From a virus: 30,320 bases of DNA. The first letter of the stretch is position 1. Every line of letters begins with the position of its first letter. This document shows positions 4,661-25,816 of this stretch, one piece after another. Below the pieces are notes generated by a model. It saw only the letters and a program-made list of their open reading frames with translations, had not been told where the DNA came from and ran no database searches. The position numbers were made by a program, and so were the translations under genes. Where the stretch lies: positions 1 through 30,320 of the IMG/VR virus record IMGVR_UViG_3300048625_000043, one strand, 5' to 3'.

Positions 4661-4722
4661 CGACTATATTTTAAATAAAAAAATCTTTTTTAATTTTTTT
4701 TTAATTATTTCTTTAAAACAAA

Positions 4723-8206: not shown

Positions 8207-11206
8207 TTATTTATTTTCTATAGTTTCTATTTTATTATTAAGCTCCTTAATTGCATTTATTAAAGTAGCATAAATTGCATCTTTTTCTAATCCTAAAAAC
8301 TTAGTTTTATCTCCAAATTCCTTTATAGCATCTGGCATTATTTCTTGTACTTCTTGAGCTATAAATCCAAATTGAATACCTTGATTAACTTTGTCATCTT
8401 TCCAATTATAACTAACTGGTCTAAGTTTTAAAATATCATTTAAGCCATATTCAATACTTTTAATATCAGTTTTTAATCTGCTATCTGAAGGATTTGTGCT
8501 TGTTAAAGCTCCAGCATTTGAATAAACTAATCCAGTACCTAAATTATAAACTATAAAATCTCCATTTGAATTAATTCTAGTTTTAGCACTTCCAGCAATA
8601 TAATTTATAATATATCCACCAGTTGTATTTATTAATAATCCTCCTGCAGAATCATTTCTAAAATCAGCATAAGTAGTACTACCATCATAAGATAGTCTTA
8701 GTTGTTCAGCAGTATTAACTACCGTTAAAGTTTTAGCTGGCGAAGTCGTTCCGATACCTACGTTGCCAGAAAAAAATGCTGAATTATCATAATTTAATTT
8801 TAATGCAGCCGTAGTATTAGGATTACTACCATTATTTGGAGAAGTATAAAAAGCAAGATTAAAGCTATAATCTGCGTTTGTGCTATTTTGTTTTTCTAAA
8901 CTAATTCTACCAAATGATAACGGAGAACCTCCATTGGTATAAACACCTTTAAATAGAATGCTTCCTCCTACTCCCGCTGCTTGAGTGGTTGAATCTGAAA
9001 CTGTCAAAGCATCTTTTCCAGCAGTTACAAACGTTGCACTCGTACCACTTAAAGCCCCCGTAAGAGTTGCGCCAGTTGCACTAATTGTACTATTAAAACT
9101 AGCGCTAGTATCAGAATTAATTGTTAAAGCTCCATTACCTCCGTTTACCTCAAAGTGAAGCGTTCCGCTAGCATTATAGTTAGCAAAAGTTAATCGTCTA
9201 TCAGTGTGATAAATAGCACCGCTTCCAGCAGTCATACCGCTAACATATAAAGCGCTTCCAGTTAAAGAACCTCCAGCACTTACAAAAGTTCCGACGCTTA
9301 ACGAAGTGCCTACGCTTACAATTCCATTTGAATAAATAGATTCTCCAGTAATTGAGCCTCCGCCAATAATTGCATTTCTAAAATTAGCGTTACCAGTTGT
9401 CCCAATTGTGAATCTATCTAATGAATTAGTGACATCATAAACCGTAAAAACTCCATTATTATTAGAAATATAATAGTCTGGATTATTATCAGAATCTGTA
9501 AGATATAATTTTGGATTAGTAGAACTAATAGTTAAATCTCCCGTAAACGTTGCACTTGTTCCACTTAAAGCTCCGCTAAAAGTTGCTGAAGTTCCTACTA
9601 TTGAAGTTGCAAAAGTACAAAGATTATAGTCTATAATTAAAGGACTTTTTGCAGTTCCATCAGCACCAGCACTATAAAAAAATCTAAATCTTTGTCCACC
9701 ACTATCAAAAGGACTTCCATTATCTCCTAAATCAAAAACTAATTCTCCCTTATCTCCTTCTGTGCTATTACCATATATTTTCCAATTATCACTCGTAGCC
9801 ATTACTTGACCTATGTAATAATTAGTTCCTCCTACCGTATTATTAGCTGGTAAAAATATATTTCCAGTCATTGTACCGCCAGTAAGAGCTAAATAAGTAG
9901 AGGCAGCAGAACTAGTAGTTAAATAAGTGCTATTATCGTAGCTAATTGTAGTACCGCTAATCTTAACGAAACCAGTTCCAGAAAGTGCCGCTTGTTTAGC
10001 ATTAAATGTAGTCCAGTCGGTGCTAGTCAAATAACCATTTACACTAGAAGTAGCGGCAGGAATAGAAACCGAATTTGTTGAACGTGATAAAGGAGAGCTA
10101 AAAGTTAATGGTTGCTCTGGGCTATAACCTAAAATGGTTGCAATGCTTTTATTCTTCCAAAGGCTAGTTGAAGATTCGTAAAACAAACCATCGTTATTAG
10201 CTTTTGAAGTAATTAAAACATCGTGAATCTCATCTAGCTCATAACCATTTTGAATCTTAACCTCAATTTGTCCTTGAGTAGGATGTGACCTTGTTACAAC
10301 ACCGATATAAACTAAGTGAGCTGGTGCAACTTGCTTTGTAGTCGTGTAAGTTCCTGCGGTTGTAGACGAAAGATATAATTGAACTCCTTCGCTAATTGCT
10401 GAAGTATCTAAACCTACAATATCTCCTACACAAACAACATAACCAATTGAGTTATTTGCAATATCAGCTTGACATAAACCAAATGTTTGAGCCGAAGTAG
10501 AATCGCCTGTTGCTAATGCTTTTGAAACTGTAGGTTTATTACCAGTCGCTCCCGAAATATAAACAACAGTTCCTTTTGTTAATGTCGCACCCGTTGTATT
10601 TCTAACCTCACGAACTAAAGTACCTGCTTGTCCTGCAATTGGAAAAGTTACAGGAGTTCCTGCTCCGTTAAGATATTGAGTAGAATCGCCAGTCGGATTA
10701 TTAAACTTAGCATTTAAAGCGTTTTGTAAATCAGTTTGCGAGCTTAATGTACCTGTAATTGCTCCCCAAACTGCGCTTGAATCCTTTATTTCTATGTAAG
10801 CTGAACCAGACCATCTATAAATTAAATTTGTGTCTAAAACGACATAAATCTTACCTGTCTCTCCGGTAGTAGGAAGTGCTGAATAAGTAGCCACCTCTAC
10901 TACATCATCTACATAGCTAGGCAATTGTGATGAAGGAACTTTGCCATCTACTAAGTCAGCCTTTAAATTTAAAGCGTTTTGTAAATCAGTTTGATTTGAT
11001 AAAGTACCACCAATCTCACCCCAATTAACTCCAAAGTTACCCGTTAAGGAATTGATATTAATTTCTACTACACTAGGAGTAACGTTAAGCGTTATGTCCT
11101 CTCTATTGTCGATTATATTGACATCTATTACCTCGTCCGTAGGTTGAGACGTAATCTCGATTAGATTGGTGGTTTCCGTTACTATGATGTCTATAATATC
11201 TTCCAT
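8207..11206 (-). CDS. Tail fibre with C-terminal S74 autoprocessing chaperone, 999 aa
   Basis: A long, low-complexity beta protein rich in Ser/Thr/Gly with repeated modules. LSNQTDLQNALNLK and LSSQTDLQNALNAK form an N-terminal pair, followed by several GALSGTSATF repeats (about 540-745). The C-terminal ~93 residues are a peptidase S74 / intramolecular chaperone domain starting SDSRLKTDIKSI. Ser907 and Lys912 have the dyad spacing of the family, which helps the trimer fold and then cuts itself off. IQFGFIAQEVQEIMPD is also typical. This is the main candidate for host recognition. Confidence 0.9.
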   Translation of the reverse strand: MEDIIDIIVTETTNLIEITSQPTDEVIDVNIIDNREDITLNVTPSVVEININSLTGNFGVNWGEIGGTLSNQTDLQNALNLKADLVDGKVPSSQLPSYVDDVVEVATYSALPTTGETGKIYVVLDTNLIYRWSGSAYIEIKDSSAVWGAITGTLSSQTDLQNALNAKFNNPTGDSTQYLNGAGTPVTFPIAGQAGTLVREVRNTTGATLTKGTVVYISGATGNKPTVSKALATGDSTSAQTFGLCQADIANNSIGYVVCVGDIVGLDTSAISEGVQLYLSSTTAGTYTTTKQVAPAHLVYIGVVTRSHPTQGQIEVKIQNGYELDEIHDVLITSKANNDGLFYESSTSLWKNKSIATILGYSPEQPLTFSSPLSRSTNSVSIPAATSSVNGYLTSTDWTTFNAKQAALSGTGFVKISGTTISYDNSTYLTTSSAASTYLALTGGTMTGNIFLPANNTVGGTNYYIGQVMATSDNWKIYGNSTEGDKGELVFDLGDNGSPFDSGGQRFRFFYSAGADGTAKSPLIIDYNLCTFATSIVGTSATFSGALSGTSATFTGDLTISSTNPKLYLTDSDNNPDYYISNNNGVFTVYDVTNSLDRFTIGTTGNANFRNAIIGGGSITGESIYSNGIVSVGTSLSVGTFVSAGGSLTGSALYVSGMTAGSGAIYHTDRRLTFANYNASGTLHFEVNGGNGALTINSDTSASFNSTISATGATLTGALSGTSATFVTAGKDALTVSDSTTQAAGVGGSILFKGVYTNGGSPLSFGRISLEKQNSTNADYSFNLAFYTSPNNGSNPNTTAALKLNYDNSAFFSGNVGIGTTSPAKTLTVVNTAEQLRLSYDGSTTYADFRNDSAGGLLINTTGGYIINYIAGSAKTRINSNGDFIVYNLGTGLVYSNAGALTSTNPSDSRLKTDIKSIEYGLNDILKLRPVSYNWKDDKVNQGIQFGFIAQEVQEIMPDAIKEFGDKTKFLGLEKDAIYATLINAIKELNNKIETIENK
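10712..10738. repeat. 27-bp direct repeat in the tail fibre gene, copy 1
   Basis: Identical to 10967-10993. It encodes the shared TDLQNALN part of two N-terminal fibre modules, a sign of recent duplication or recombination within the gene. Confidence 0.85.
10967..10993. repeat. 27-bp direct repeat in the tail fibre gene, copy 2
   Basis: The partner of 10712-10738, 255 bases away and in the same orientation and frame. The spacing is a whole number of codons (85). Confidence 0.85.
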
Positions 11207-12121: not shown

Positions 12122-13891
12122 TTATTTTGGTAAAAATCCTTTATTTGGCATATCGATAGGTTTCGTATATACCAGTTTACTATCTTTTTTATAATTCTTA
12201 CCATCTGCTTTATCAAATGGATTAGGTAAAATTTCACCTGCTTTTCTTGCCTCCGCTGGTGTTATTTCTTGAGCTCCTTTTTTACGTGGGTCGGTAAAAC
12301 GCTTATATGTTTCACGAGTCCAAAAATGGTGACAAGCTCCACCTCCTTTATATAAAAATATGTCGTATGTATCTATACCATTTGGGCCCCAACCAGGATT
12401 TGTACTAGGTTTTTGACTCATTAATTCAATATCTTCTTTACGATATAACTTATTTAATGAAGTCATTTTCTTACAAAATTCTCTTGATTTTGCACTTGTT
12501 TCCCCACTATATCTATAACGAGAAATAAAAAGTTTGCCATCTTGAGAACTTTTTAAATCTGGTCTAGCTACTCCGGTAGTTACAAAATTCCAAACCTTAG
12601 ACATTAAAGACTTTTCGGGGTTATTTAAAGCCTCTAGTTCCGCATCTAAGCGAGCTTCTTCTTCGTAAGATACTCTTCTGCTATCAATTAATTCCCACTC
12701 ATTAGAATCGAGTTCTTCGCCAAATTCTTCTAAGTTTAAATAATCTAAATGAGAAGATAATTTAACCCCAGTCTCCTCCTCCATTGTGGCCGAATCCATT
12801 TTAGGGTTTTGGTCAATAAACTCTAAAGGTTGTAAAGTCTTAAAGTAAAGGTTTAAGCTAATAGCGTTAAAAGCTAAAATCTTATCGATAGAATCTAAAA
12901 CCGTACCTTGTTTAGGACGAATTACCATATTATCGAATAAGATAGAGGCATTCTTTAACTCGTCCGCATTAGAGCTAAATCCGTTGTTAGATGGAATACC
13001 AAATAACAAACCGCTAGTAATAGAGTGGCCTAATAGAATCTTACCTCTAGCCTCTTCGCTTAAATATTGGTAGTGAGCTGGTGCATCGTTTAAAGGTACG
13101 CTATCGATTGTAGTCTTCTTAGTCTCATCGCTATTGAACGCTACAACTATTTTAGCTCCATTTGAGCCACTTAATTTACGCTTGACATCCGAAGCTATTA
13201 AACCTTGCTTTTCTTCGTCTGGTACTCCATTATTAAAGTTAATAACGCTAGTTGGAGAGAAGCCATTTTGTACGTCATTAATCAAGTAGTCCGCTATCTC
13301 TTCTTCTAAAGTCGCATAAGGTAAAGCACCAATATAATCAACATTAGAGTAATACTTTTGTCCTACGCTATAATCACGCACACAAAGAAGCTCTAAAGTT
13401 TTATCTCCATATCCAAAAGCACCAATACGCTTGGGAGGATAATTCTTCGTATCGCTCCAATTATCGGAGTAGTAGTAGCCTGTAATCTCGCCCTTATCGT
13501 TGCACTTCTCGGTACGGATTAATTGAGCTGGTACGTGTTCTACTCTAACTACCGCATTTTTAGCCTTGTTGTAAATTACTTGGAAATATCCTTGACCTAA
13601 AAGCTTGTAGTCCGTAATTATGCACTTTAAAACCTCGGGTCTAAATAACATCTTCATTTGAGCGTACTCGTTTGGCTTCTTATTTGAATCCGTAGCATCT
13701 AAACCCCTACCATAAATAAGTTTATTAATAGAATTAATAACCGAGTTATTAGTAGTCGAGTTATTGTATCTATCAATTAGGTATTTAAAGTATTCGTTGT
13801 CATCGCCAAAATTAACCCATGCTTCCTTATTAGATTCGATGGATTGAGGCGGTTTATGCGATTCAAAATTGAACACGTGAACGTTACTCAT
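12122..13891 (-). CDS. Portal protein with extra C-terminal domain, 589 aa
   Basis: The first ~400 residues look like a portal. KYLIDRYNNSTTNNSVINSI and INKLIYGRGLD are followed by FRPEVLKCIITDYKLLGQGY and a central helical stem region (GHSITSGLLFGIPSNNGFSS). The last ~160 residues are a separate domain with RYRYSGETSAKSREFCKKMT, then NPGWGPNGIDTYDIF, LYKGGGACHHFW and ETYKRFTDP. I associate a similar domain with head-morphogenesis or XkdF-type proteins of Bacteroidetes phages, so this may be a fusion. The gene lies downstream of the capsid gene instead of next to terminase. It overlaps the upstream gene by 8 bp. Confidence 0.75.
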   Translation of the reverse strand: MSNVHVFNFESHKPPQSIESNKEAWVNFGDDNEYFKYLIDRYNNSTTNNSVINSINKLIYGRGLDATDSNKKPNEYAQMKMLFRPEVLKCIITDYKLLGQGYFQVIYNKAKNAVVRVEHVPAQLIRTEKCNDKGEITGYYYSDNWSDTKNYPPKRIGAFGYGDKTLELLCVRDYSVGQKYYSNVDYIGALPYATLEEEIADYLINDVQNGFSPTSVINFNNGVPDEEKQGLIASDVKRKLSGSNGAKIVVAFNSDETKKTTIDSVPLNDAPAHYQYLSEEARGKILLGHSITSGLLFGIPSNNGFSSNADELKNASILFDNMVIRPKQGTVLDSIDKILAFNAISLNLYFKTLQPLEFIDQNPKMDSATMEEETGVKLSSHLDYLNLEEFGEELDSNEWELIDSRRVSYEEEARLDAELEALNNPEKSLMSKVWNFVTTGVARPDLKSSQDGKLFISRYRYSGETSAKSREFCKKMTSLNKLYRKEDIELMSQKPSTNPGWGPNGIDTYDIFLYKGGGACHHFWTRETYKRFTDPRKKGAQEITPAEARKAGEILPNPFDKADGKNYKKDSKLVYTKPIDMPNKGFLPK

Positions 13892-14210
13892 AGAAAATTA
13901 TATTTTGGTCGTTTTGTACGTACTCGTCTTTATTAACTGAATACGTCCCTATTGTTTGATTCGTGCAAAATACCTTATCTCGATAAATTAACTCGGAATC
14001 TTGCTTAATTGTCATCGTATAAAAGTGACCTTCTTCTAAAGATAGTACTTTTAAAAATGTAAGATAGTACGATTCTTGAGTACAAGTAATAGAATACTCT
14101 ACCTCTACATTAGTCGTTTCGTTTCTTAAAAATAGCTTATTGCCCGCATTTCTACGAGTTGGTACAAATCGTACCTCTTGAGCTAAATTAGATTCCTTTA
14201 AAACTATCAT
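13884..14210 (-). CDS. Hypothetical virion-region protein, 108 aa
   Basis: A beta-rich small protein (VRFVPTRRNAGNKLFLRNE, YSITCTQESYYLTFLKVLSL, YTMTIKQDSELIYRDKVFCT) with no signal or membrane span. The strand pattern would fit a small head or tail joining protein or decoration protein, but I do not recognise the family. It starts five bases after motif copy B, with the tail tube terminator further upstream, and runs into the portal gene with an 8-bp overlap. Confidence 0.65.
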   Translation of the reverse strand: MIVLKESNLAQEVRFVPTRRNAGNKLFLRNETTNVEVEYSITCTQESYYLTFLKVLSLEEGHFYTMTIKQDSELIYRDKVFCTNQTIGTYSVNKDEYVQNDQNIIFYE

Positions 14211-14215
14211 TATGG

Positions 14216-14247
14216 TATAAACGTTATTTAATATGTTTTGTTTCTAA
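14216..14247 (-). promoter_or_regulatory. Shared late motif, copy B (ACAAAA...AACGTTTATA)
   Basis: This 32-base stretch matches 7862-7893 at 28 of 32 positions; the core CGTTTATA is at 14223-14216. The ATG of the 108-residue gene follows after five bases. A terminator sits directly upstream, so new transcription must begin about here for the portal genes. Confidence 0.55.
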
Positions 14248-14256
14248 AACGAAAAA

Positions 14257-14277
14257 GGGGAAGACCTCAGCTCCCCC
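14257..14277 (-). terminator. Rho-independent terminator after the tail tube gene
   Basis: On the minus strand GGGGGAG pairs with CTTCCCC (seven pairs, one G-U) around a seven-base loop, followed by TTTTTCGTTTT. It lies about 30 bases after the tail tube stop codon. Confidence 0.85.
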
Positions 14278-14305
14278 AATTTCAAACCTCAAACAACAAA
14301 AACTA

Positions 14306-14833
14306 TTATGAACCCGATACGATTGTAAAACCAGCCGAAGTTAAAGAAGTAGTTAAGAAGTTAGCCGGTACTGGCTCTTGACCCGATAACACTAAAGTGT
14401 ATCCCGATAAATCGCCCATCGCTGCACCTGTAACGATTGTACCTCCGGATACTTCCATTCCGTGAGCTAAGCCACAATAGAATAAGTTTCCGTTGTTATC
14501 TTCTACGATAACTTGAGGACGGCCGTAAGACAAAAGCTTAATTTGCTTATGGTCTACAATCGATAATTTTTTCAACGTTAAATTTAACGTTTGCTCGAAG
14601 AACGTAGTTCCGTTCTCACGAGAAGAAGTAATAGTTTGCTCGAAAGAACTATTACCTTTTAAGTCGTACTTATATGCACTAGGAGTACCTGTAACCGTAG
14701 CAATGGCATCCGTATTAGTAGCATCGTAAGTAACTCCCGTAGCATCACCCTCGTTAACAAAGTAAACGGCTTTCAATCCACCGTTACTCGTTTTACAAGG
14801 CTCAATTCTGCCTAAAGAAATATCACAAGACAT
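14306..14833 (-). CDS. Major tail tube protein candidate, 175 aa
   Basis: A soluble beta-rich protein: MSCDISLGRIEPCKTSNGG, YKYDLKGNSSFEQTITSSRE, TTFFEQTLNLTLKKLSIVDH, GRPQVIVEDNNGNLFYCGLA and a GYTLVLSGQEPVPA end. The size and strand pattern fit tail tube proteins of long-tailed phages. Its position between two terminators, directly after the capsid gene, fits a protein needed in high copy. The start is set at 14833. The longer frame from 14866 would begin inside the terminator at 14863-14884. Confidence 0.65.
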   Translation of the reverse strand: MSCDISLGRIEPCKTSNGGLKAVYFVNEGDATGVTYDATNTDAIATVTGTPSAYKYDLKGNSSFEQTITSSRENGTTFFEQTLNLTLKKLSIVDHKQIKLLSYGRPQVIVEDNNGNLFYCGLAHGMEVSGGTIVTGAAMGDLSGYTLVLSGQEPVPANFLTTSLTSAGFTIVSGS

Positions 14834-14862
14834 ATTATATAATTTAAAAGATTTAAAAATAA

Positions 14863-14884
14863 GCACCCCGAATTAACGAGGTGC
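14863..14884 (-). terminator. Rho-independent terminator after the capsid gene
   Basis: On the minus strand GCACCTC pairs with GGGGTGC (seven pairs, one U-G) around an eight-base loop, followed by TTATTTTTAAATCTTTT. It lies 13 bases after the capsid stop codon and probably limits readthrough into the tail tube gene. Confidence 0.85.
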
Positions 14885-14896
14885 TCTTAAAGCTAA

Positions 14897-15856
14897 TTAG
14901 TTAGCTGAGTTAGTGATTCCGTAAGTAACGATATCTTCTACCGCACCATATTGAACACCAGCCGTTAAACGCATAACTACACGTACGTTCTCTGAACCAT
15001 CTACGTCTGCCATGTCGATAACTTTTACAGAAGAAGAATCCATGTCAGCAAGTACACCAGTACCGAAGAACAAATTCTCTTTCAAAGTAGCGATTGCAGT
15101 GTTAGAAGCTAAACCATTAGCTACAAAAACTTTAACACCATCAAAAGAAAGAGAGCCATTGTTATACCATTGAGTTCCCATTGCGTTAGTACCATTAGCA
15201 CCTAAGCCAGAAGCAGCAAATCCACCCAAAGCACGAACATAAGCACGAGCAATGTTTTGAGATACATAAAGGTAAAGACCATCGTGTCCGTAAAGAGCTG
15301 CAGGGATTGCATCAACAATCTTTCCTAATTCAGCAACTACGTTAGAAGCAGTAACCGTTGTACCTGCAACTTCTTGAGCAGCTGGTAAAGCAGCATCCGC
15401 AGCTAATAAAGTAGCAAAACCATTGAACTCTCCAGCGTTAGCCGTAACACCAGCCCAGATGTTTGTTTCATTCTTAGCAGCAACCTTAGCAGCTACGTGA
15501 CCTACTAAGTAGTCAGCGAAAGATTTAGGAATAACATCAAAAGCAGAGTATCCTTGCTCAGCTGATAACCAATCAGAGTGAAAATCTTTCTTACATAATT
15601 GTAAGTTCACTTGGAATTCTTCTGGTTGTAAGATACGCTCAGTTAAAGTAACTGTAGAAGTTGCTGAGAAATCACAAGAAGCATCTTTTAAGATTGCATC
15701 AGTTGATAATTTCTTAACTACTTCTTTGTACTTGATACCCGGCTTAACCGTGATACCACCCGCATCGATAGTAGGTGAAGATAATAAAGCAGCCGAGATA
15801 ATTTGATTTTTAAACTCTCCGCTATAAGAAGTTGTGATACTTGTAGTAGTAGCCAT
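14897..15856 (-). CDS. Major capsid protein (HK97-type fold likely), 319 aa
   Basis: The size, Ala/Gly richness and secondary-structure pattern fit an HK97-type capsid subunit. Features include an N-terminal arm ending around SYSGEFKNQIIS, the stretch RILQPEEFQVNLQLCKKDFH, a long spine-like helix region SFADYLVGHVAAKVAAKNET, and late A-domain strands GLYLYVSQNIARAYVRALGG and VRVVMRLTAGVQYGAVED. It follows a scaffold-like gene by 20 bases and is closed by a strong terminator. No covalent cross-link residues were assigned. Confidence 0.82.
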   Translation of the reverse strand: MATTTSITTSYSGEFKNQIISAALLSSPTIDAGGITVKPGIKYKEVVKKLSTDAILKDASCDFSATSTVTLTERILQPEEFQVNLQLCKKDFHSDWLSAEQGYSAFDVIPKSFADYLVGHVAAKVAAKNETNIWAGVTANAGEFNGFATLLAADAALPAAQEVAGTTVTASNVVAELGKIVDAIPAALYGHDGLYLYVSQNIARAYVRALGGFAASGLGANGTNAMGTQWYNNGSLSFDGVKVFVANGLASNTAIATLKENLFFGTGVLADMDSSSVKVIDMADVDGSENVRVVMRLTAGVQYGAVEDIVTYGITNSAN

Positions 15857-15876
15857 TTTTTAAATTTGTTAGTTAA

Positions 15877-16491
15877 TTATTTTGAAAAGATTCTGTTAAA
15901 TACCGCATCCTCAATAGATGAAGTTCTGTTTTTACCAATTTTATACATTTGTTTTGGAGCATTAGCTTCAGGATTGTGTGCCAAAGGTTGAGCACCTTCT
16001 TCGATAGAAGACATTTCAACTTTTAAAGACTCATTTTCCGCTTTTAATGCTTCATTCTCTTGCTTGATTAATGAGAACTCTTGACGTAATTTCTCAATCT
16101 CAGCAAAGAAAGTTTCCTTAGATACTGATTCTACGATACGTTTCGCCTTCGGAGCTTCGCTCATTTGTGGAGCCGTAACTTCTTCAGGTGCTGGCTCTCC
16201 AGCCTCCGCTGCTGGATGTGCTGCCTCTGGCATAACTTCCTCTTCAGCCTCTGGAGAAATAGATGCGATAACACCCTCAACCTCTACTACCAAGATGTTT
16301 CCATCCTCTAACTTGTACTCGCCTACTGGCATCGGTACAATACCATCAGCCGTTACAATTCCTACCGAGTAATCCGGCTCAAATGATTCCGCCTCAATGA
16401 TAGTAATACCATCTTCTAGCTTCATTTGTGCGAGTTTTACCTCCATAGAAAGAACAGCCTTAATCTTGTTTAACTTGTTCTTGTATTCCAT
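15877..16491 (-). CDS. Scaffold-like capsid assembly protein, 204 aa
   Basis: It has a small N-terminal beta domain (KLEDGITIIEAESFEPDYSV ... VVEVEGVIASI, about 23-78), a long acidic Pro/Ala/Glu linker (about 80-115), and a coiled coil (TFFAEIEKLRQEFSLIKQEN, EALKAENESLKVEM, about 127-160). The tail is basic. This layout directly upstream of the capsid gene is typical of scaffolding proteins. The beta domain resembles ones seen on capsid assembly proteins of Bacteroidetes phages. It could also be a capsid-associated decoration protein. Confidence 0.65.
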   Translation of the reverse strand: MEYKNKLNKIKAVLSMEVKLAQMKLEDGITIIEAESFEPDYSVGIVTADGIVPMPVGEYKLEDGNILVVEVEGVIASISPEAEEEVMPEAAHPAAEAGEPAPEEVTAPQMSEAPKAKRIVESVSKETFFAEIEKLRQEFSLIKQENEALKAENESLKVEMSSIEEGAQPLAHNPEANAPKQMYKIGKNRTSSIEDAVFNRIFSK

Positions 16492-16514
16492 ATATTTATT
16501 AATTTATTTACTTA

Positions 16515-16907
16515 TTAAATCTTAGTATACAAAGTCTTATACTTTTTTGCATAATCAGCATTAGCTTTTACAATTTCAGAAGCCTTAGAAAAACCAGTAA
16601 TTTTTTGTGCTTCTTTTGGGTCCATACCAATTGCTTTAAGTGAGTCTTCGATTTCTTTTAAATCATTTGCAGAACCATTATTTAAAGCTACACTTTGGTC
16701 AATTAATGTTTGAAAATCCATATACATTTTAATATATGCCATTTTCATATCATTCATTTTTAATGATGCTTTTACTAAATTGTCTTGAATTTTTTGTGCT
16801 TCTTTAGCAACATCAGAAGCTTGTTTAGCAAACTCATAATTTTGAGATGCTAATTCTACTTTCTCATTAGAGAATAGTTTGTTAAATACTTGTTTTTGTG
16901 TGTTCAT
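16515..16907 (-). CDS. Helical coiled-coil protein, 130 aa
   Basis: Almost entirely helical, with a long heptad-like stretch from about residue 15 to 75 (SQNYEFAKQASDVAKEAQKI, QDNLVKASLKMNDMKMAYIK). No known family is recognised. It sits between the XkdF-type protease and the scaffold-like gene, so a role in head assembly is likely from context. The start at 16907 lies two bases after the previous stop (TAATTATG). Confidence 0.6.
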   Translation of the reverse strand: MNTQKQVFNKLFSNEKVELASQNYEFAKQASDVAKEAQKIQDNLVKASLKMNDMKMAYIKMYMDFQTLIDQSVALNNGSANDLKEIEDSLKAIGMDPKEAQKITGFSKASEIVKANADYAKKYKTLYTKI

Positions 16908-16909
16908 AA

Positions 16910-17095
16910 TTATCCGTTTTGTCTTGTTATAACTCTTGGTTCGTTTGTATTTACTACCGATGAGCTTACTTGCCCAACTAAAGCACCAATACCTTGATTA
17001 ATTTCTTCTCCTTTGCAACAATCTTTAGAGTAAGTTCCGTCTTTGCATAAGCAAGCTCTTGAAGAATCTTGCGGACTTGTCTTTTTATTTGCCAT
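16910..17095 (-). CDS. Small Cys-rich protein, 61 aa
   Basis: The distinctive block CLCKDGTYSKDCCKGEEINQ (residues 15-34) holds four Cys as CxC...CC, followed by GIGALVGQVSSS. Short proteins with this CLC-x-DGTYS-xx-CC-x-G arrangement recur in Flavobacterium-type phages, function unknown. The cysteines could bind zinc. It overlaps the XkdF-like gene by 11 bp and so belongs to the head gene block. Confidence 0.65.
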   Translation of the reverse strand: MANKKTSPQDSSRACLCKDGTYSKDCCKGEEINQGIGALVGQVSSSVVNTNEPRVITRQNG

Positions 17096-17663
17096 CTTTT
17101 AAAATATTTATGATTTGATTAATTAACTCCTCCTCTTCTAGCTCTTGTAAAGACATCTCTAGTTTATCTGCAAAGTATCCCTCGATAGAAAAACCTTTAT
17201 ACTTGCCATCTTTAACTTGCTTCCAAACGTTTTCGTCTTCTATCTTCATAGAAATCATCCAAGTACCTTTAGGTAGTGAGAATCCGTATTGCTTAGATTT
17301 GTCCATTTCTGGGTTATCAATAATCCAAGACTCAACAACCGTAGCACCATCGAATTTAGCTTTATGCTCAAGCGTTGCATTTGATTGGTTACCATTCTTT
17401 AAGAATAACTCGCTTGCTTGTTTTACCGTAGCCTCGCTAAAGAATACGTAGAACTCATCCTTGCCATTCTTACGATATATTTGCTTATTAGGAATTAACG
17501 CAGCTCCCATAAGGATACGCTTATCCGAATCCACTTCGGCAAGCTCTACTTTATAATCTTTATTTAAAGCGATAAAGTTCTCCTCGATAGCTGGTGCATC
17601 TACCAAGCTAACCGCATCAATCCCATCTAAATCTTTCTCGATAACTAATTCGACAATTCTCAT
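17085..17663 (-). CDS. XkdF-type putative head maturation protease, 192 aa
   Basis: It fits the XkdF (PBSX-like) family. The opening is MRIVELVIEKDLDGIDAVSL followed by VDAPAIEENFIAL, then ILMGAALIPNKQIYR, NATLEHKAKFDGATVVESWI (about 106-125), LPKGTWMISMKIEDENVW and KYKGFSIEGYF. The H in LEHK, the S in ESW and the GFSIEG turn are the conserved positions usually taken as the protease-like core. This family is often annotated as the prohead protease. It starts four bases after motif copy C and heads the scaffold and capsid block. Confidence 0.8.
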   Translation of the reverse strand: MRIVELVIEKDLDGIDAVSLVDAPAIEENFIALNKDYKVELAEVDSDKRILMGAALIPNKQIYRKNGKDEFYVFFSEATVKQASELFLKNGNQSNATLEHKAKFDGATVVESWIIDNPEMDKSKQYGFSLPKGTWMISMKIEDENVWKQVKDGKYKGFSIEGYFADKLEMSLQELEEEELINQIINILKDGK

Positions 17664-17667
17664 AGCC

Positions 17668-17694
17668 TATAAACGTTTATATTTTTTTTTGTTA
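17668..17694 (-). promoter_or_regulatory. Shared late motif, copy C (palindromic TATAAACGTTTATA)
   Basis: The core CGTTTATA (17675-17668) is here part of a perfect 14-base palindrome, TATAAACGTTTATA. An ACAAAA block lies upstream as in the other copies. The ATG of the XkdF-like gene follows after four bases. It lies in the 41-base gap behind the tape measure gene. Confidence 0.5.
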
Positions 17695-17704
17695 CATTTT
17701 CAAA

Positions 17705-19636
17705 TTATCCAAGACTAGCCGAAGTAATAATATTCCTATTAAGTGCTTGCTGAGTAGTTACATCACTAGCAACTACATAAGCTCTCATGGGCTCTTGTGG
17801 TTGTCCTAATGTTTGTGCTAATTGATTAACTCCACTTGTGCCAACTACGTTAAACGATGGAGCACTAGAAGAACCTGCACTAGGTGTAGATGTATCTCCA
17901 GTGCCTCCTCCTACGTTTGTAGAAAGGATATCATTAACCGATTTGAAACCAATCGCTGCGGTAGTCGCAATATTTGCAAGCTTAATACCGAACTCAAAAG
18001 GAGTAGCGGTCTTTGTAGCTAACTCGGCGGTAATACCTTGATAAGTATTAATTAACGCTTGTGCTACCGCAAATGCTTTACCCTCCGTAGAGTTTTGTTC
18101 AAATAAGCTAGACATATTGCTTAACGTTTGGCTAACCATTGCAAGCTTTTGCTTTTGTAATGCTTTCTCTTGAGCGTGAGTCTCCTTATCTATTTTAGCT
18201 TTTTCATCCGCACTTAATTGATTTGAAGCTTGAGCTAATTCGTTATACTTCCTTAAAGCCTCTAATCGAATTGACAAAGAGTTTTGCTCATTTGATAGCT
18301 CGGCTTGTAAACGTTCGCTTTGCTTATTATAGTTATAAGTAGCTATTTCATCTTCTTTAGATTTGATAGAAGCTTCTAATTCTTGTTTCTTAGCATTATA
18401 TTCTTTTACCGCCTCTACTCTAGCTTGAGTATCTAAAGCATAAGAATTAATATTATTTTGTAATCGCTCTAATTGAATCTTTTTCTCCTCCTCTAAATTA
18501 TCTAATTGCGCTTTTAATTTTTTATCTTCATCCTTTATTAACTCGGCGGTAGCTTGCTTTTCTGCTATTGCTAAATCCGCAACACCCTCTTTAGCGGTTT
18601 TATCTAAATCAATTTTTTCTTTCGTTAAAGCAATTGCGTTTGCTTGTTGTTCCGAACGCAAACCTTCTACTTGAGCTAGAACACCTGCAGCGTTTGCCTC
18701 GGCATTTATTAAAGCTACTCTATTTTCTATTGAAGCGTTTTTGTCTACATCAGCTTGAGCTGCATCAACTTGAGCTTGAGCTGCAGCAAGCATTGCCTTT
18801 GTTTGATTATCTAAAACTTCATTTAAATCCTCATTTGCTTTAATTCGTTTATCAATTGATAACAAATCATTATCTCTAATTTGTCTTTGTTTCTCCGCTT
18901 GTCTATCAAATTTTTCAGCATCTTTTGCTTGTTGGGCTGCAGCTAATTGAGCATTATTTTTTAATTGAACTAATTTCTCTGCAGCTTCTTTTACTTTTTT
19001 TGCATAATCCGATAAACTATTCGCTGCTTTCTTAACTATTTCCTTCCCTTTATCTACACTATTATTAACTCCAGTTAAAACATCTACCGATTCTTTACCA
19101 GCCTTTTTAACGTTGTCTAGGGCTGCAGCAAAGTTACCGGAGAATAATTCCTTCAAAGCACTACTTAAATAGCCTAGAGTGTCAAGGAATGAGTTAAAGC
19201 GTTCGATTAAGTTCTCCTTTATAGCATTACCTAACTTCTTTAAATTCTCTACCGGATGCTCAAAAACATCCTTAAAAAAAGCAACTATTTTAGGGAAGTT
19301 ATCAAAGATTAACTTAATTAAATCATTAAATACAATAGACAATGCTTCTAATGCCGTATTCATAATGTCTACTACCTTTTGATTTTTAGATAGTACCTCT
19401 TTGAACATATTGAATGCCTCCATTACAAGCCCAATACCAAGAGCTTTAACGGCTAATCCCATGCCTTTAAATCCATTGACTAAGCCTTTGATTCCGCCTT
19501 CGGCATTCTTCGTAGACTTACCAATATCTTTAATAGCCTCCTCGGTCTCCGCAAACTTTTCGACAAGGTCGCTAACCTTTTTTTCAAGGTCTTTGATATT
19601 ATTTTTTAACTCTAATTCGACTGTAACTTTTTCCAT
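17705..19636 (-). CDS. Tail tape measure protein, 643 aa
   Basis: An N-terminal coiled coil (ELKNNIKDLEKKVSDLVEKF) is followed by a Gly-rich hydrophobic segment (GFKGMGLAVKALGIGLVMEA, about 53-72) and helical membrane-active-like stretches (FNDLIKLIFDNFPKIVAFFK). A very long Ala/Gln/Lys coiled coil then runs from about 200 to 530, and the C-terminus is Ser/Gly rich. This is the tape measure pattern. It sets tail length by spanning the tube lumen. At about 1.5 angstrom per residue, 643 residues suggest a tail near 95 nm, a rough estimate. Its start overlaps a 51-residue gene by 25 bp. Confidence 0.85.
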   Translation of the reverse strand: MEKVTVELELKNNIKDLEKKVSDLVEKFAETEEAIKDIGKSTKNAEGGIKGLVNGFKGMGLAVKALGIGLVMEAFNMFKEVLSKNQKVVDIMNTALEALSIVFNDLIKLIFDNFPKIVAFFKDVFEHPVENLKKLGNAIKENLIERFNSFLDTLGYLSSALKELFSGNFAAALDNVKKAGKESVDVLTGVNNSVDKGKEIVKKAANSLSDYAKKVKEAAEKLVQLKNNAQLAAAQQAKDAEKFDRQAEKQRQIRDNDLLSIDKRIKANEDLNEVLDNQTKAMLAAAQAQVDAAQADVDKNASIENRVALINAEANAAGVLAQVEGLRSEQQANAIALTKEKIDLDKTAKEGVADLAIAEKQATAELIKDEDKKLKAQLDNLEEEKKIQLERLQNNINSYALDTQARVEAVKEYNAKKQELEASIKSKEDEIATYNYNKQSERLQAELSNEQNSLSIRLEALRKYNELAQASNQLSADEKAKIDKETHAQEKALQKQKLAMVSQTLSNMSSLFEQNSTEGKAFAVAQALINTYQGITAELATKTATPFEFGIKLANIATTAAIGFKSVNDILSTNVGGGTGDTSTPSAGSSSAPSFNVVGTSGVNQLAQTLGQPQEPMRAYVVASDVTTQQALNRNIITSASLG

Positions 19637-22843: not shown

Positions 22844-23376
22844 TTTCTATTTTCTAATTTATAACTAACAAGCGTGTCTATATCCGCTTTAAATGCTTTA
22901 ATCAACTCCTTGCCTAAATACCTATCCTTTGCAACCTCAAAAGGTTTAGTAAAGAATAAGCTAGGTCGTATTCCAGTTTGGTAAATACTTCTAGTAATAA
23001 TGAAAGCCGTAGATTGATAGCTCAAAAACTTACCGCTCTTTTTATCTCTAAATTGTATTCCTTTTAATCTAACCCACTTGTCTATGCCTTCGGTTAATCC
23101 TCCCTTTCTGCCTTTACCACTACCAAACTTAAACGGACTATTAGGAGCTTTTGCACTCTTCGATTTACCTCTAACCCCTTGGTCTTGGTAAGCTCCGTAG
23201 TCTTCCATAGAGAAGTTAATTAAGGAGTAGTTATCTTCCTTTAATACTTCGCTACTAATGCTATTGTAAAGCTTGCTAGAGACGTTCTTTCCGCCATTAG
23301 TTAGGTTACTTCGTGATTGTTGAATAACGTAGCTCCTAAACTTTTTAATTAAATCGTCTACGTTCTTTAATTCCAT
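22840..23376 (-). CDS. HK97 gp10-like tail completion / head-tail joining protein, 178 aa
   Basis: It has the pattern of gp10-like (neck or tail completion) proteins. An N-terminal helix MELKNVDDLIKKFRSYVIQQ is followed by LYNSISSEVLKED, a central MEDYGAYQDQGVRGKSK (the 'Y..y.e.G...' turn), a Gly/Lys loop, and a final RPSLFFTKPFEVAKDRYLGK. The start is set at 23376, where ATG overlaps the upstream stop as TAATG. The longer frame from 23382 adds only two residues. Confidence 0.65.
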   Translation of the reverse strand: MELKNVDDLIKKFRSYVIQQSRSNLTNGGKNVSSKLYNSISSEVLKEDNYSLINFSMEDYGAYQDQGVRGKSKSAKAPNSPFKFGSGKGRKGGLTEGIDKWVRLKGIQFRDKKSGKFLSYQSTAFIITRSIYQTGIRPSLFFTKPFEVAKDRYLGKELIKAFKADIDTLVSYKLENRK

Positions 23377-23831
23377 TAGCAAATAGTCATATCATTAGGA
23401 GTAATAACGTCAAACGTTAATGTCCATCCAGCCACTTTGTTTTCAAATCTATCGGTAAACGGTTCCGCATTCGGTGCCGATTCAACTTGCACTAGATTAG
23501 TAAATAATGAGCCTCTCATTAAGTCGGAACTTAATTTAGAAGCTAAAGCTAGTTGTGTGTTTAAAACATCTTGTTCATTATCATTCCCTACCCATACATC
23601 GGTTACCGCTTCCTTGCTCTCGTCCACTATATCCATGAATAGAATCGAGATATTTAAAGACGTAGTATTCTCCCCTAGTTGGGCATTGTTTACAATGATA
23701 TGAGACAAAGGGAAAATCGTTTGTTTGTTCAAGTCTACTTTAAATATATCCCCAATAGTTACCGTATTGATAAAATCGGTATTTTTTAGGTAATCCTTTA
23801 TCGTATTTACTACGTAATAATATCCGTTCAT
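23376..23831 (-). CDS. Tail terminator / tail completion candidate, 151 aa
   Basis: An alpha/beta protein of tail terminator size: MNGYYYVVNTIKDYLKNTDF, NTVTIGDIFKVDLNKQTIFP, LSHIIVNNAQLGENTTSLNI, ILFMDIVDESKE, then TQLALASKLSSDLMRG and a closing AGWTLTFDVITPND. The conserved-looking PLSHIIVNNA strand and the C-terminal 'aGW...f.v..pnd' strand recall gp17-like or minor tail proteins that cap tails. Its ATG overlaps, as TAATG, the stop of the -1 frame chaperone extension. That is evidence that the extension is translated. Confidence 0.55.
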   Translation of the reverse strand: MNGYYYVVNTIKDYLKNTDFINTVTIGDIFKVDLNKQTIFPLSHIIVNNAQLGENTTSLNISILFMDIVDESKEAVTDVWVGNDNEQDVLNTQLALASKLSSDLMRGSLFTNLVQVESAPNAEPFTDRFENKVAGWTLTFDVITPNDMTIC

Positions 23832-24085
23832 TATTTTTGATTTTTAATCATTCTCATTTCTAAATTGTTCTTTTGCTTCTCAAAGGTCAAAAACGTTAAG
23901 CATTGATGTAGGGGAAGTTTTGATATTTCATCAAATCGTCTAACATCTCCTTGAGCGAGAGCATAGATAGAGCTATACCATCCCCATCTTTTCCCAAATT
24001 GTGCTTGTTCACTATATCCATTATCTTCGGATTCTCCTCCAAATAGGTCAGCGTACTTTTCAGCAATTCGTTGCCTAAATGATAA
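23831..24085 (-). CDS. -1 frame extension of the tail assembly chaperone (gpGT-like), 84 aa
   Basis: No good start codon exists. The frame is open from the T9 slip site at 24084-24092 to TAA 23833-23831. The sequence reads as a conserved domain: FGKRWGWYSSIYALAQGDVR (84-aa extension, about residues 30-49), then LPLHQCLTFLTFEKQKNNLE. I recognise the KWGWY..IY.LA.GD...F..I..L pattern from Bacteroidetes phage tail chaperones. A -1 slip at T TTT TTT after codon 163 would give a 247-residue fusion, as with lambda gpG/gpGT, where the rarer fusion bridges tube and tape measure. About 190 bases are coding in two frames. Confidence 0.8.
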   Translation of the reverse strand, partial: LSFRQRIAEKYADLFGGESEDNGYSEQAQFGKRWGWYSSIYALAQGDVRRFDEISKLPLHQCLTFLTFEKQKNNLEMRMIKNQK

Positions 24086-24573
24086 AAAAAAACCATCGCC
24101 CCAAGAACTACATCTAGCGGAGCGTGTTTCATTACATCCGAATAAGTTAGAGAACCTTTGTACTCTTCTATCTGGTATCTATCTCCCATTTTATTAGTAA
24201 TCGGTCTAAATAACACCGCCATAGCTTTGTGCATCTCATCCCAATCGGTAATATAAGTATCTAAATCGACGTACTCTCCTTGAGTCATATCGTCTAGATT
24301 AGGAATAAATCCAAACTCCGCTCCCCCTAATTTAAAGCGTGGAATAAACTTATGATTTGTGTTAAATAAAGTACCAAGATTGCTAGTAATTTCGTTTACG
24401 TCCTTACGTTTAATACTTGCTACGTCCTTTAAATCAATTCCACAAAAAATCTGCACCATCTTTTGGTGCAAAAACTCGCTTTCTTCATTTTCCTTAGCAA
24501 TCTTTAGAAATTTTTGATATTGAGATAGCTTAATTTCTTTTAGTTGCGTAGGAATATTTAATTCTAGCTTCAT
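23896..24573 (-). CDS. Tail assembly chaperone, gpG-like, 225 aa
   Basis: The N-terminal part (MKLELNIPTQLKEIKLSQYQ, then KFLKIAKENEESEF) and GAEFGFIPNLDDMTQGEYVD (about 104-123) match a Bacteroidetes phage family encoded ahead of tail genes. The segment MVFFYHLGNELLKSTLTYLE spans the homopolymer slip site, after which the zero frame continues 62 codons to IQ-free, acidic SLKEMLDDLMKYQNFPYINA. In long-tailed phages two products from this locus escort the tape measure during tube assembly. It starts five bases after motif copy A and is the first tail gene. Confidence 0.7.
   Translation of the reverse strand: MKLELNIPTQLKEIKLSQYQKFLKIAKENEESEFLHQKMVQIFCGIDLKDVASIKRKDVNEITSNLGTLFNTNHKFIPRFKLGGAEFGFIPNLDDMTQGEYVDLDTYITDWDEMHKAMAVLFRPITNKMGDRYQIEEYKGSLTYSDVMKHAPLDVVLGAMVFFYHLGNELLKSTLTYLEENPKIMDIVNKHNLGKDGDGIALSMLSLKEMLDDLMKYQNFPYINA
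24082..24094 (-). promoter_or_regulatory. Slippery sequence for -1 ribosomal frameshifting (GGTTTTTTTTTAT)
   Basis: The minus strand has nine T in a row read as GTT TTT TTT TAT in the zero frame. T TTT TTT is a valid X XXY YYZ slip site, and moving back one base enters the open -1 frame at TTA TCA TTT. No downstream pseudoknot was worked out. A tenth T in some genomes, or in the true sequence, would fuse the frames directly. Confidence 0.7.
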
Positions 24574-24604: not shown

Positions 24605-25816
24605 TTAGTAGACGAAATACTTTCCACTATTGGGATTAGATAGCTGATAGAAGACGTTGTAACGTATGGCATCGATGGCATGGTTAAAGTTATCGACCAC
24701 AAGCCCAGACTTCTTATCGGAGTATATGTAGTTATTAAGTTCTTTTCCAATGTTTTGTGAGTTAGGTTCTATAATTAATTCGTAGTCTTGCATGAGTGCT
24801 AGTCCTGCGGTAATACTACCAGCTCCCTTTTCGGTTGCTATTATGTTACACCCTTGCGATTGAAGCTCGGCAATAAGTCTAGGCTCGGCACTATCCGCAA
24901 CTATTAAACCTTTTCCACAAACTCGCTTATTAATTTGCCCTATTTCGCTTGTAGTTAGCTTAGGTTTATACAAATGCTCCTTAATGTATATGCACTTCTT
25001 ATTTTTATCTATGGCTACCTCTACTAGCGTAGTCGGGTCAATCGAGAATCCAAAGTCTTGACCAAAAGAGGTTTGTAAATTGTCTGGGTTAAAGTCTCCG
25101 AATCTCCAGTTAGTAAATACTACACCTTCTGCTTTGTCTAACCACCCTCCTAAAATCGTATGCTCATACTTGCGTTTATTGGTCTTCTCTAATAGCTCGA
25201 TTTGATTAAGGAACGATTCGCTTAGATAATCTATGTTATCCTTGTAGGTAGTGTGAATGTAGGTCGTATCTCCTTTAGTAAGTGAAGTACCTTCTTGAAC
25301 TCCCTTTTCTTCGAAGAATCGATTATAGATAAAATGCTCTTTTGTAGTTGGGTTTAAGATTAAGATAACTCGGTTTTGTCTATAACTATTACGAATAGAA
25401 AAGTCAATCTTATCGAATACATCCTCGTCTACTAATTCTTCTGCCTCGTCAAGCACGAACGTAGTCACACCCGATAAAGACTTCAAGTTTGCGGTTTGCG
25501 TTCCGCTAGAGGTCTTAATTCCCTTAAATAAAATCTTTGAATTTGTGCGAGTGTTAATAATCTCGTCTTTTGTAATATAGAAGTCCGCTTCTAATCCAGC
25601 CATCTCAATCTTTTCCACAAACTCAGGAATAATTGACACGTGAGCAGAGACTAATGTATAACGAGTAAATAGTATTACGTGTCCTACTTCGTACGTTAGA
25701 AGCAAAAGAAAGGAGTTCAAGGCAAACGATTTCCCCGAACCCCTTCCTCCGGTAATTACAAAGTACCTACTTCCGCTTTCAAATAAAGGTACGTATTTAC
25801 TATTTAGCTCTATCAC
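24605..25816 (-). CDS. terL: Terminase large subunit, 403 aa
   Basis: An ATPase and nuclease of the PBSX/Terminase_3 type. Walker A is GGRGSGKS (residues 23-30) and Walker B is TTFVLDEAEE with Asp123-Glu124. A coupling-motif-like LILNPTTKEHF follows. The C-terminal RNase H-like nuclease has FGQDFGFSIDPTTLVE, LIVADSAEPRLIAEL and VVDNFNHAIDAIRYNV, which supply the acidic metal-binding residues. It powers DNA packaging and cuts concatemers. The start is coupled to the small subunit by ATGA. It is the last gene before motif copy A. Confidence 0.95.
   Translation of the reverse strand: MIELNSKYVPLFESGSRYFVITGGRGSGKSFALNSFLLLLTYEVGHVILFTRYTLVSAHVSIIPEFVEKIEMAGLEADFYITKDEIINTRTNSKILFKGIKTSSGTQTANLKSLSGVTTFVLDEAEELVDEDVFDKIDFSIRNSYRQNRVILILNPTTKEHFIYNRFFEEKGVQEGTSLTKGDTTYIHTTYKDNIDYLSESFLNQIELLEKTNKRKYEHTILGGWLDKAEGVVFTNWRFGDFNPDNLQTSFGQDFGFSIDPTTLVEVAIDKNKKCIYIKEHLYKPKLTTSEIGQINKRVCGKGLIVADSAEPRLIAELQSQGCNIIATEKGAGSITAGLALMQDYELIIEPNSQNIGKELNNYIYSDKKSGLVVDNFNHAIDAIRYNVFYQLSNPNSGKYFVY

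Follow-up and report, generated by a model that had tools for sequence, protein, structure and literature searches.

A conserved nine-T run in a dual-coded phage tail-region gene points to recoding, probably by transcriptional slippage

How is a second reading frame entered in a phage late gene that carries a run of nine T, and are the two frames behind this run both used? The question is raised by the viral IMG/VR record IMGVR_UViG_3300048625_000043, of which positions 1 to 30,320 were analysed (this whole stretch of 30,320 nucleotides is the window). Its late genes lie on the minus strand, where one gene reads GCG ATG GTT TTT TTT TAT CAT TTA GGC, the slip site GTT TTT TTT TAT being codons 161-164 of its 225-aa ORF (Table 1). 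Beyond the T9 the zero frame has 61 open codons before its TAA (23898-23896), and the -1 frame has 83 of its 86 codons; the two frames together have a predicted fusion product of 247 aa. A first-pass annotation, made from the letters of the window, had described a T9 slip site followed by an open -1 frame without a start of its own, and a 247-aa fusion; the site and the open frame are present, the fusion would have that length, and the counts given are off by one or two codons at most. No other nine-base T/A run of the window falls within a likely gene, the two further ones (4694-4702 and 17682-17690) being located between listed genes.

Table 1. Position of the frameshift gene, its parts and its neighbours in the window.
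Feature	Position	Strand	Remarks
Zero-frame ORF, short product	23896..24573	-	225 aa; homologues found
Shared N-domain	24094..24573	-	160 codons ahead of the slip-site GTT codon; confident AlphaFold2 model
T9 slip site	24084..24092	-	GTT TTT TTT TAT; A9 on the plus strand
-1 frame extension	23834..24091	-	86 codons; predicted four-helix domain; under selection
-1 frame stop TAA	23831-23833	-	
Dual-coded stretch	23899..24083	-	185 nt; both frames open and under selection
Next gene	23376..23831	-	151 aa; PHROG 30964, unknown function
Terminase large subunit (TerL) gene, upstream of the frameshift gene	24605..25816	-	
Probable tape-measure gene	17705..19636	-	PHROG 9483, E 2.3e-10

Searches with either frame gathered homologues from hundreds of viral contigs, two cultured phages and three contigs filed under genomes, and duplicate removal left 343 distinct sequences with a readable site at the locus. 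The run is exactly nine T in 336 of them and ten T in the remaining 7; no shorter or interrupted run occurs among the 343, even though protein identity falls to about 27%. The cultured Nonlabens phages P12024L and P12024S also have T9, and independent assemblies agree with these two isolates. Errors and replication slippage readily occur at long T runs (PMC3711429), and a sequencing error, a decayed gene or phase variation at the DNA level might be suspected at such a site; however, nine or ten T are kept in every distinct sequence, cultured isolates included, and both frames are under selection (see below), which leaves these explanations practically no chance. Replication slippage and phase variation were rejected on these two grounds. 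Since 9-10 T persist throughout the relatives despite the divergence of the proteins, the T9 of the window is no sequencing error, and of the miscount that the first-pass annotation had considered there is no sign among the 343. The two cultured members infect a marine flavobacterium, and the rest of this large group is mostly uncultured. One of the contigs, L293 (PBGL02000003.1), is filed as a Euryarchaeota MAG and has this phage gene family, and is probably a misbinned phage contig.

It is the length of the run that is kept, rather than the codon register. A second register, CGG (once AGG) TTT TTT TTT GCT/GTT, is found in 10 sequences, where the run is still nine. Three Phe codons before the Tyr would permit 12 T, but all seven members with this arrangement stop at 10 T, either by the use of TTC or by a preceding codon that does not end in T; as the seven stem from few lineages, this limit is suggestive. 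Two relatives, L181 and L192, carry a second T9 (TTG TTTTTTTTT GAT) at offset 63 of a 348-nt ORF, near the start of the 116-aa reading frame; apart from the slip site, genes of this family contain few T9 runs, and this is one of them.

Selection on the two frames was tested on a tree of 86 gap-free homologues, with isolated substitutions classed by their effect in each frame and set against the opportunities for them; the test of the zero frame was stratified, i.e. conditioned on the effect in the -1 frame. In the overlap, omega is 0.27 for the zero frame (95% CI 0.18-0.44) and 0.16 for the -1 frame (0.105-0.217), as compared with controls of 1.23 for the third frame of the overlap and 1.20 and 0.99 for non-existent frames of the upstream single-coded part. 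The short single-coded -1 tail, a further control, gave 0.78, a value that comes from few sites, is not covered by its bootstrap range (0.83-1.47) and is unreliable. Per site, third positions have 12.6 changes in the upstream part and fewer, 6.1, within the overlap. The direction is the same in three smaller sets, which have lower power and noisy controls (0.48-2.30) and are taken to support the direction only. Ranking by one frame only still recovered loci with the other frame open, and the openness of the second frame is thus not an artefact of the search. That the -1 frame reads as a domain and that the zero frame stays protein-like past the run, so that the same bases code twice, had been proposed from the single sequence; the relatives bear out both, with purifying selection in each frame, and the -1 frame, for which a lack of conservation had been named beforehand as a possible refutation, is conserved in them.

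The overlap had also been called unusually deep; in SEA-PHAGES frameshift genes the zero-frame stop comes on average 26 nt after the slip site (PMC10885494), against 185 nt here. Most of the clade to which the window belongs has an overlap of 61 codons, and one clade reaches 83. The zero frame ends 24 codons past the run in P12024L/S and 15-49 codons past it in remote relatives (mostly 15-38 in the most remote groups), and deep dual coding is therefore not universal. Judged from the selection in the sequences, there seem to be two alternative, conserved C-termini for a single N-domain.

It could still be argued that the recoding is real and that the zero-frame tail is a functionless by-product of constraint on the -1 frame. 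Given the -1 protein and phage codon usage, 8% of random back-translations keep the zero frame open to the same point, so its openness in a single genome is unremarkable and was dropped as stand-alone evidence (P about 0.08); the conserved GDG of the zero frame is partly forced by WGWY in the -1 frame, and the tail is modelled with low confidence from residue 188 and ends early in remote relatives. Against this stand the stratified omega, obtained with most controls about 1, and the complete absence of zero-frame stop gains from the overlap on the 86-homologue tree, where about 21 would be expected if they were tolerated like other zero-frame changes (an estimate from the same rates), as well as the fact that most of the clade has its zero-frame stop at codon 61. 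We therefore consider a functionless tail improbable. Entry into the -1 frame by a start of its own is also disfavoured, because no ATG is found in that frame between its upstream stop and 40 codons past the run in 321 of 333 relatives. The GenBank annotation of P12024L gp41 corresponds to a variant of this idea, in which a separate small protein would be translated from the -1 frame by reinitiation after termination at the zero-frame stop. This stop does overlap a -1 frame ATG in 70 of 333 members, P12024L/S among them, but the overlap is missing in the window, where the context is TAACG, and in most members, and the conservation of the -1 frame begins at the run, far upstream of that ATG; reinitiation was rejected on this account, as a very improbable source of the -1 product.

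At the other end of the -1 frame, the first-pass annotation had pointed to coupling of the next gene to the -1 stop by TAATG. This holds in the window, where the ATG at 23831 overlaps the stop (TAATG at 23833-23829), but is not general: the next ATG is at +2 from the -1 stop, as in the window or nearby, in 50 of 333 relatives and at -1 in 106, and there is none within 25 nt in another 101.

The question that remains is whether the frame is changed by the RNA polymerase or by the ribosome. The run is an uninterrupted A/T homopolymer of about nine, kept by length over register, as is looked for in transcriptional slippage; it also contains T_TTT_TTT in frame, a heptamer of the X_XXY_YYZ type on which -1 ribosomal frameshifting takes place, and does so in every member. 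Inside the run there is no change at any position where a substitution would be silent in both frames, the third base of the second Phe codon being one of these, while on the same tree TTT and TTC are exchanged 5.5 times at other conserved Phe codons, and about 15 changes fall on other silent sites. In the other genes of these contigs, runs of at least nine T were seen 2 times against about 20 expected (the slip gene of L260 left out), and T7 and T8 are also under-represented (observed/expected 0.40 and 0.35), the drop at nine thus not being sharp. Ribosomal frameshifting is commonly, though not universally, stimulated by a stem-loop or pseudoknot downstream. Folding of RNA around the site in sliding 70-nt windows from -150 to +170, a model of stem-loops only, showed nothing unusual in 30 diverse members (mean z-scores -0.6 to +0.2). 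In many bacteria, signs of selection against such runs appear from a length of nine (PMC1088944), and transcriptional realignment on Tn is described for n>8 (PMC3711429). Slippage of the RNA polymerase is favoured over lambda-type slippage of the ribosome because silent sites of the run are fixed, its length is nine in two registers and is capped at 10 T, runs of nine or more are avoided elsewhere in these contigs and heptamers tolerated, and no stem-loop signal was found near the site; on this pattern we consider it the probable mechanism. Of the lambda gpG/gpGT logic invoked in the first-pass annotation, entry into the -1 frame at the T9 thus stands, and the evidence leans to a transcriptional rather than ribosomal route.

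The main rival is programmed -1 ribosomal frameshifting on T_TTT_TTT, in which two Phe-tRNAs would slip back by one base, as in lambda, and the same products would result. The presence of the in-frame heptamer in all members speaks for it, as does the fact that this is the established mechanism for phage tail chaperones (reviewed in PMC5009743), and the two extra T of the main register can be explained by the amino acids, hydrophobic before the heptamer and Tyr or Trp after it. However, a C at the end of the heptamer would be silent in both frames and is never found there, the run stays at nine in the second register and does not exceed ten, other genes of these contigs tolerate the heptamer in frame about 70 times, and the folding described above found no downstream structure. 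Ribosomal frameshifting is on this evidence the less likely route, though one with an appreciable chance.

Under transcriptional slippage, the RNA polymerase would slip on the nine-T run in some transcripts. The unslipped U9 mRNA would be translated into the 225-aa zero-frame protein, an mRNA with one added U into a 247-aa protein that joins the same N-domain to the four-helix domain of the -1 frame, and an mRNA one U short would soon meet UAG and give the bare N-domain. In most members the U-deleted frame does reach a UAG, in UUUAGG, within a few codons; this triplet follows from Leu-Gly coding in the zero frame and Phe-Arg coding in the -1 frame, and need not reflect selection of its own. 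Both alternative C-termini would be functional, as about 60 codons past the slip are selected in both frames, and the pair would act like the tail assembly chaperone gpG/gpGT of lambda, with short and long forms in a fixed ratio. We give this explanation as a whole, from polymerase slippage through two functional C-termini to a chaperone-like pair, an even chance.

Identification of the protein as a tail assembly chaperone, as first proposed, was not established, since neither the profile and PDB searches nor the comparison with lambda G/T gave a convincing match. The zero-frame protein and the -1 domain were modelled as separate parts; the AlphaFold2 model of the N-domain is mostly confident, and that of the -1 domain is mostly helical with a pLDDT of 80. 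Profile searches of Pfam, PHROG and PDB returned no functional family. Foldseek against the PDB gave nothing below E 1 for either model, VIA-align reached only Z<=3.4 for the models, and the 36 BFVD matches below E 0.001 are all uncharacterized or without a name at hand. One protein that carries a tail assembly chaperone annotation is matched weakly in fold, at rank 47 and without significance (E 0.94), a Phage_TAC_7 match at 0.022 is weak and occurs in 1 of 75 members, and hhalign against lambda G and T gave no match, which is weak evidence given a single sequence on each lambda side.

Lambda-type chaperones bind the tape-measure and tail-tube proteins and are absent from the virion. The gene resembles lambda gpG/gpGT and HK97 gp13/gp14 in making, to judge from the conservation of both frames, a short product and one extended in the -1 frame from a single tail-region gene, a likeness by comparison only, and in having the next gene close behind. 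It differs in that lambda's ribosomal slippage takes place near the end of G, whereas here the run is 61 codons before the zero-frame stop with dual coding in between, and in showing no detectable homology to G or T (single lambda sequences). A lambda-type gene is also usually directly upstream of the tape-measure gene; the frameshift gene is not adjacent to it but is followed by the 151-aa gene, a 180-aa gene and two large genes, and only then, after these four, by the probable tape-measure gene. Because of this position and the lack of detectable homology, it is not filed here as a member of the lambda-type chaperone family. The same two facts, together with its location directly behind TerL, would suit a recoded protein of the tail or head region that is no tail assembly chaperone. 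The two-product -1 design within a tail gene block is typical of chaperones and argues against such a protein, as do in a small way the chaperone-annotated fold match and the Phage_TAC_7 match given above. This two-form design and the tail gene block lead us, on comparative grounds, to favour moderately a chaperone role like that of gpG/gpGT, and some other recoded structural-region protein is a substantial possibility that falls short of it.

Among the neighbours, the 180-aa gene reads like a tail-completion protein, a relative of it matching PHROG 5. In relatives of the L261 type, the 182-aa gene behind the frameshift gene was tried as a tail-tube candidate and rejected, as it does not match the window's 186-aa candidate. 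Over 12122-19636 of the window, the tail genes precede a probable capsid gene (14897-15856) and portal gene (12122-13891), both named by reading only; this arrangement is unusual in a siphophage.

Few cases of recoding in phages are as widespread as the frameshifted tail chaperones, of which the known ones are explained by ribosomal slippage, usually near the zero-frame stop. Programmed recoding in a phage late gene is thus already known, and it is the combination here that is new. The genes known to use transcriptional slippage (Thermus dnaX with A9, Shigella mxiE, and IS elements with 9A/9T; PMC1088944) are similar in having an A/T homopolymer of about nine and a conserved frame behind it. 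They are cellular, plasmid or IS genes, whereas ours belongs to a phage, and its zero frame, unlike theirs, continues into a long conserved tail. In the part of the literature that was searched, no phage tail-region gene was reported to use transcriptional slippage. The combined claim, that in a tail-region gene the polymerase slips across the family on a length-controlled T9-T10 and two functional C-termini come from the same ~185 nt, is put forward tentatively, at slightly under an even chance. If true, the gene would be a counterpart of gpG/gpGT that is dual-coded and acts at the level of transcription, throughout a large phage family, and it is the invariant T9, kept by length over codon register, that points to the RNA polymerase. 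The overlap is moreover a good natural system for the evolution of same-strand overlapping genes, with ~60 codons, selection in two frames and more than 300 variants.

Cultured members make the question of slippage directly testable. Nonlabens phages P12024L and P12024S (Inhavirus) carry a homologous pair, gp40-gp41, with the same T9 and TerL upstream, which is annotated as two hypothetical proteins without a join. As the first-pass annotation had expected of ordinary ORF calling, annotation misses the -1 domain or, in these two phages, calls part of it a separate hypothetical gene. In GenBank, P12024L gp41 and P12024S gp39 (3528-3695 in L002 and L003) are the separately annotated C-terminal part of the -1 domain. 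A more distant likeness is that of gp10 of Flavobacterium phage 6H (Duneviridae): the zero-frame model has a fold match at E 1.7e-4 that appears to be this protein, with which it was equated by its length of 191 aa. This protein ends ...CFFYSTR* at a T run, T_TTT_TTC, with T6C in place of T9 and a -1 frame that stops at once. Within 10048-10927 of the 6H genome (L294, NC_021867), gp10 is followed by about 300 nt that are unannotated with other frames open, and a different frameshift arrangement may be present there.
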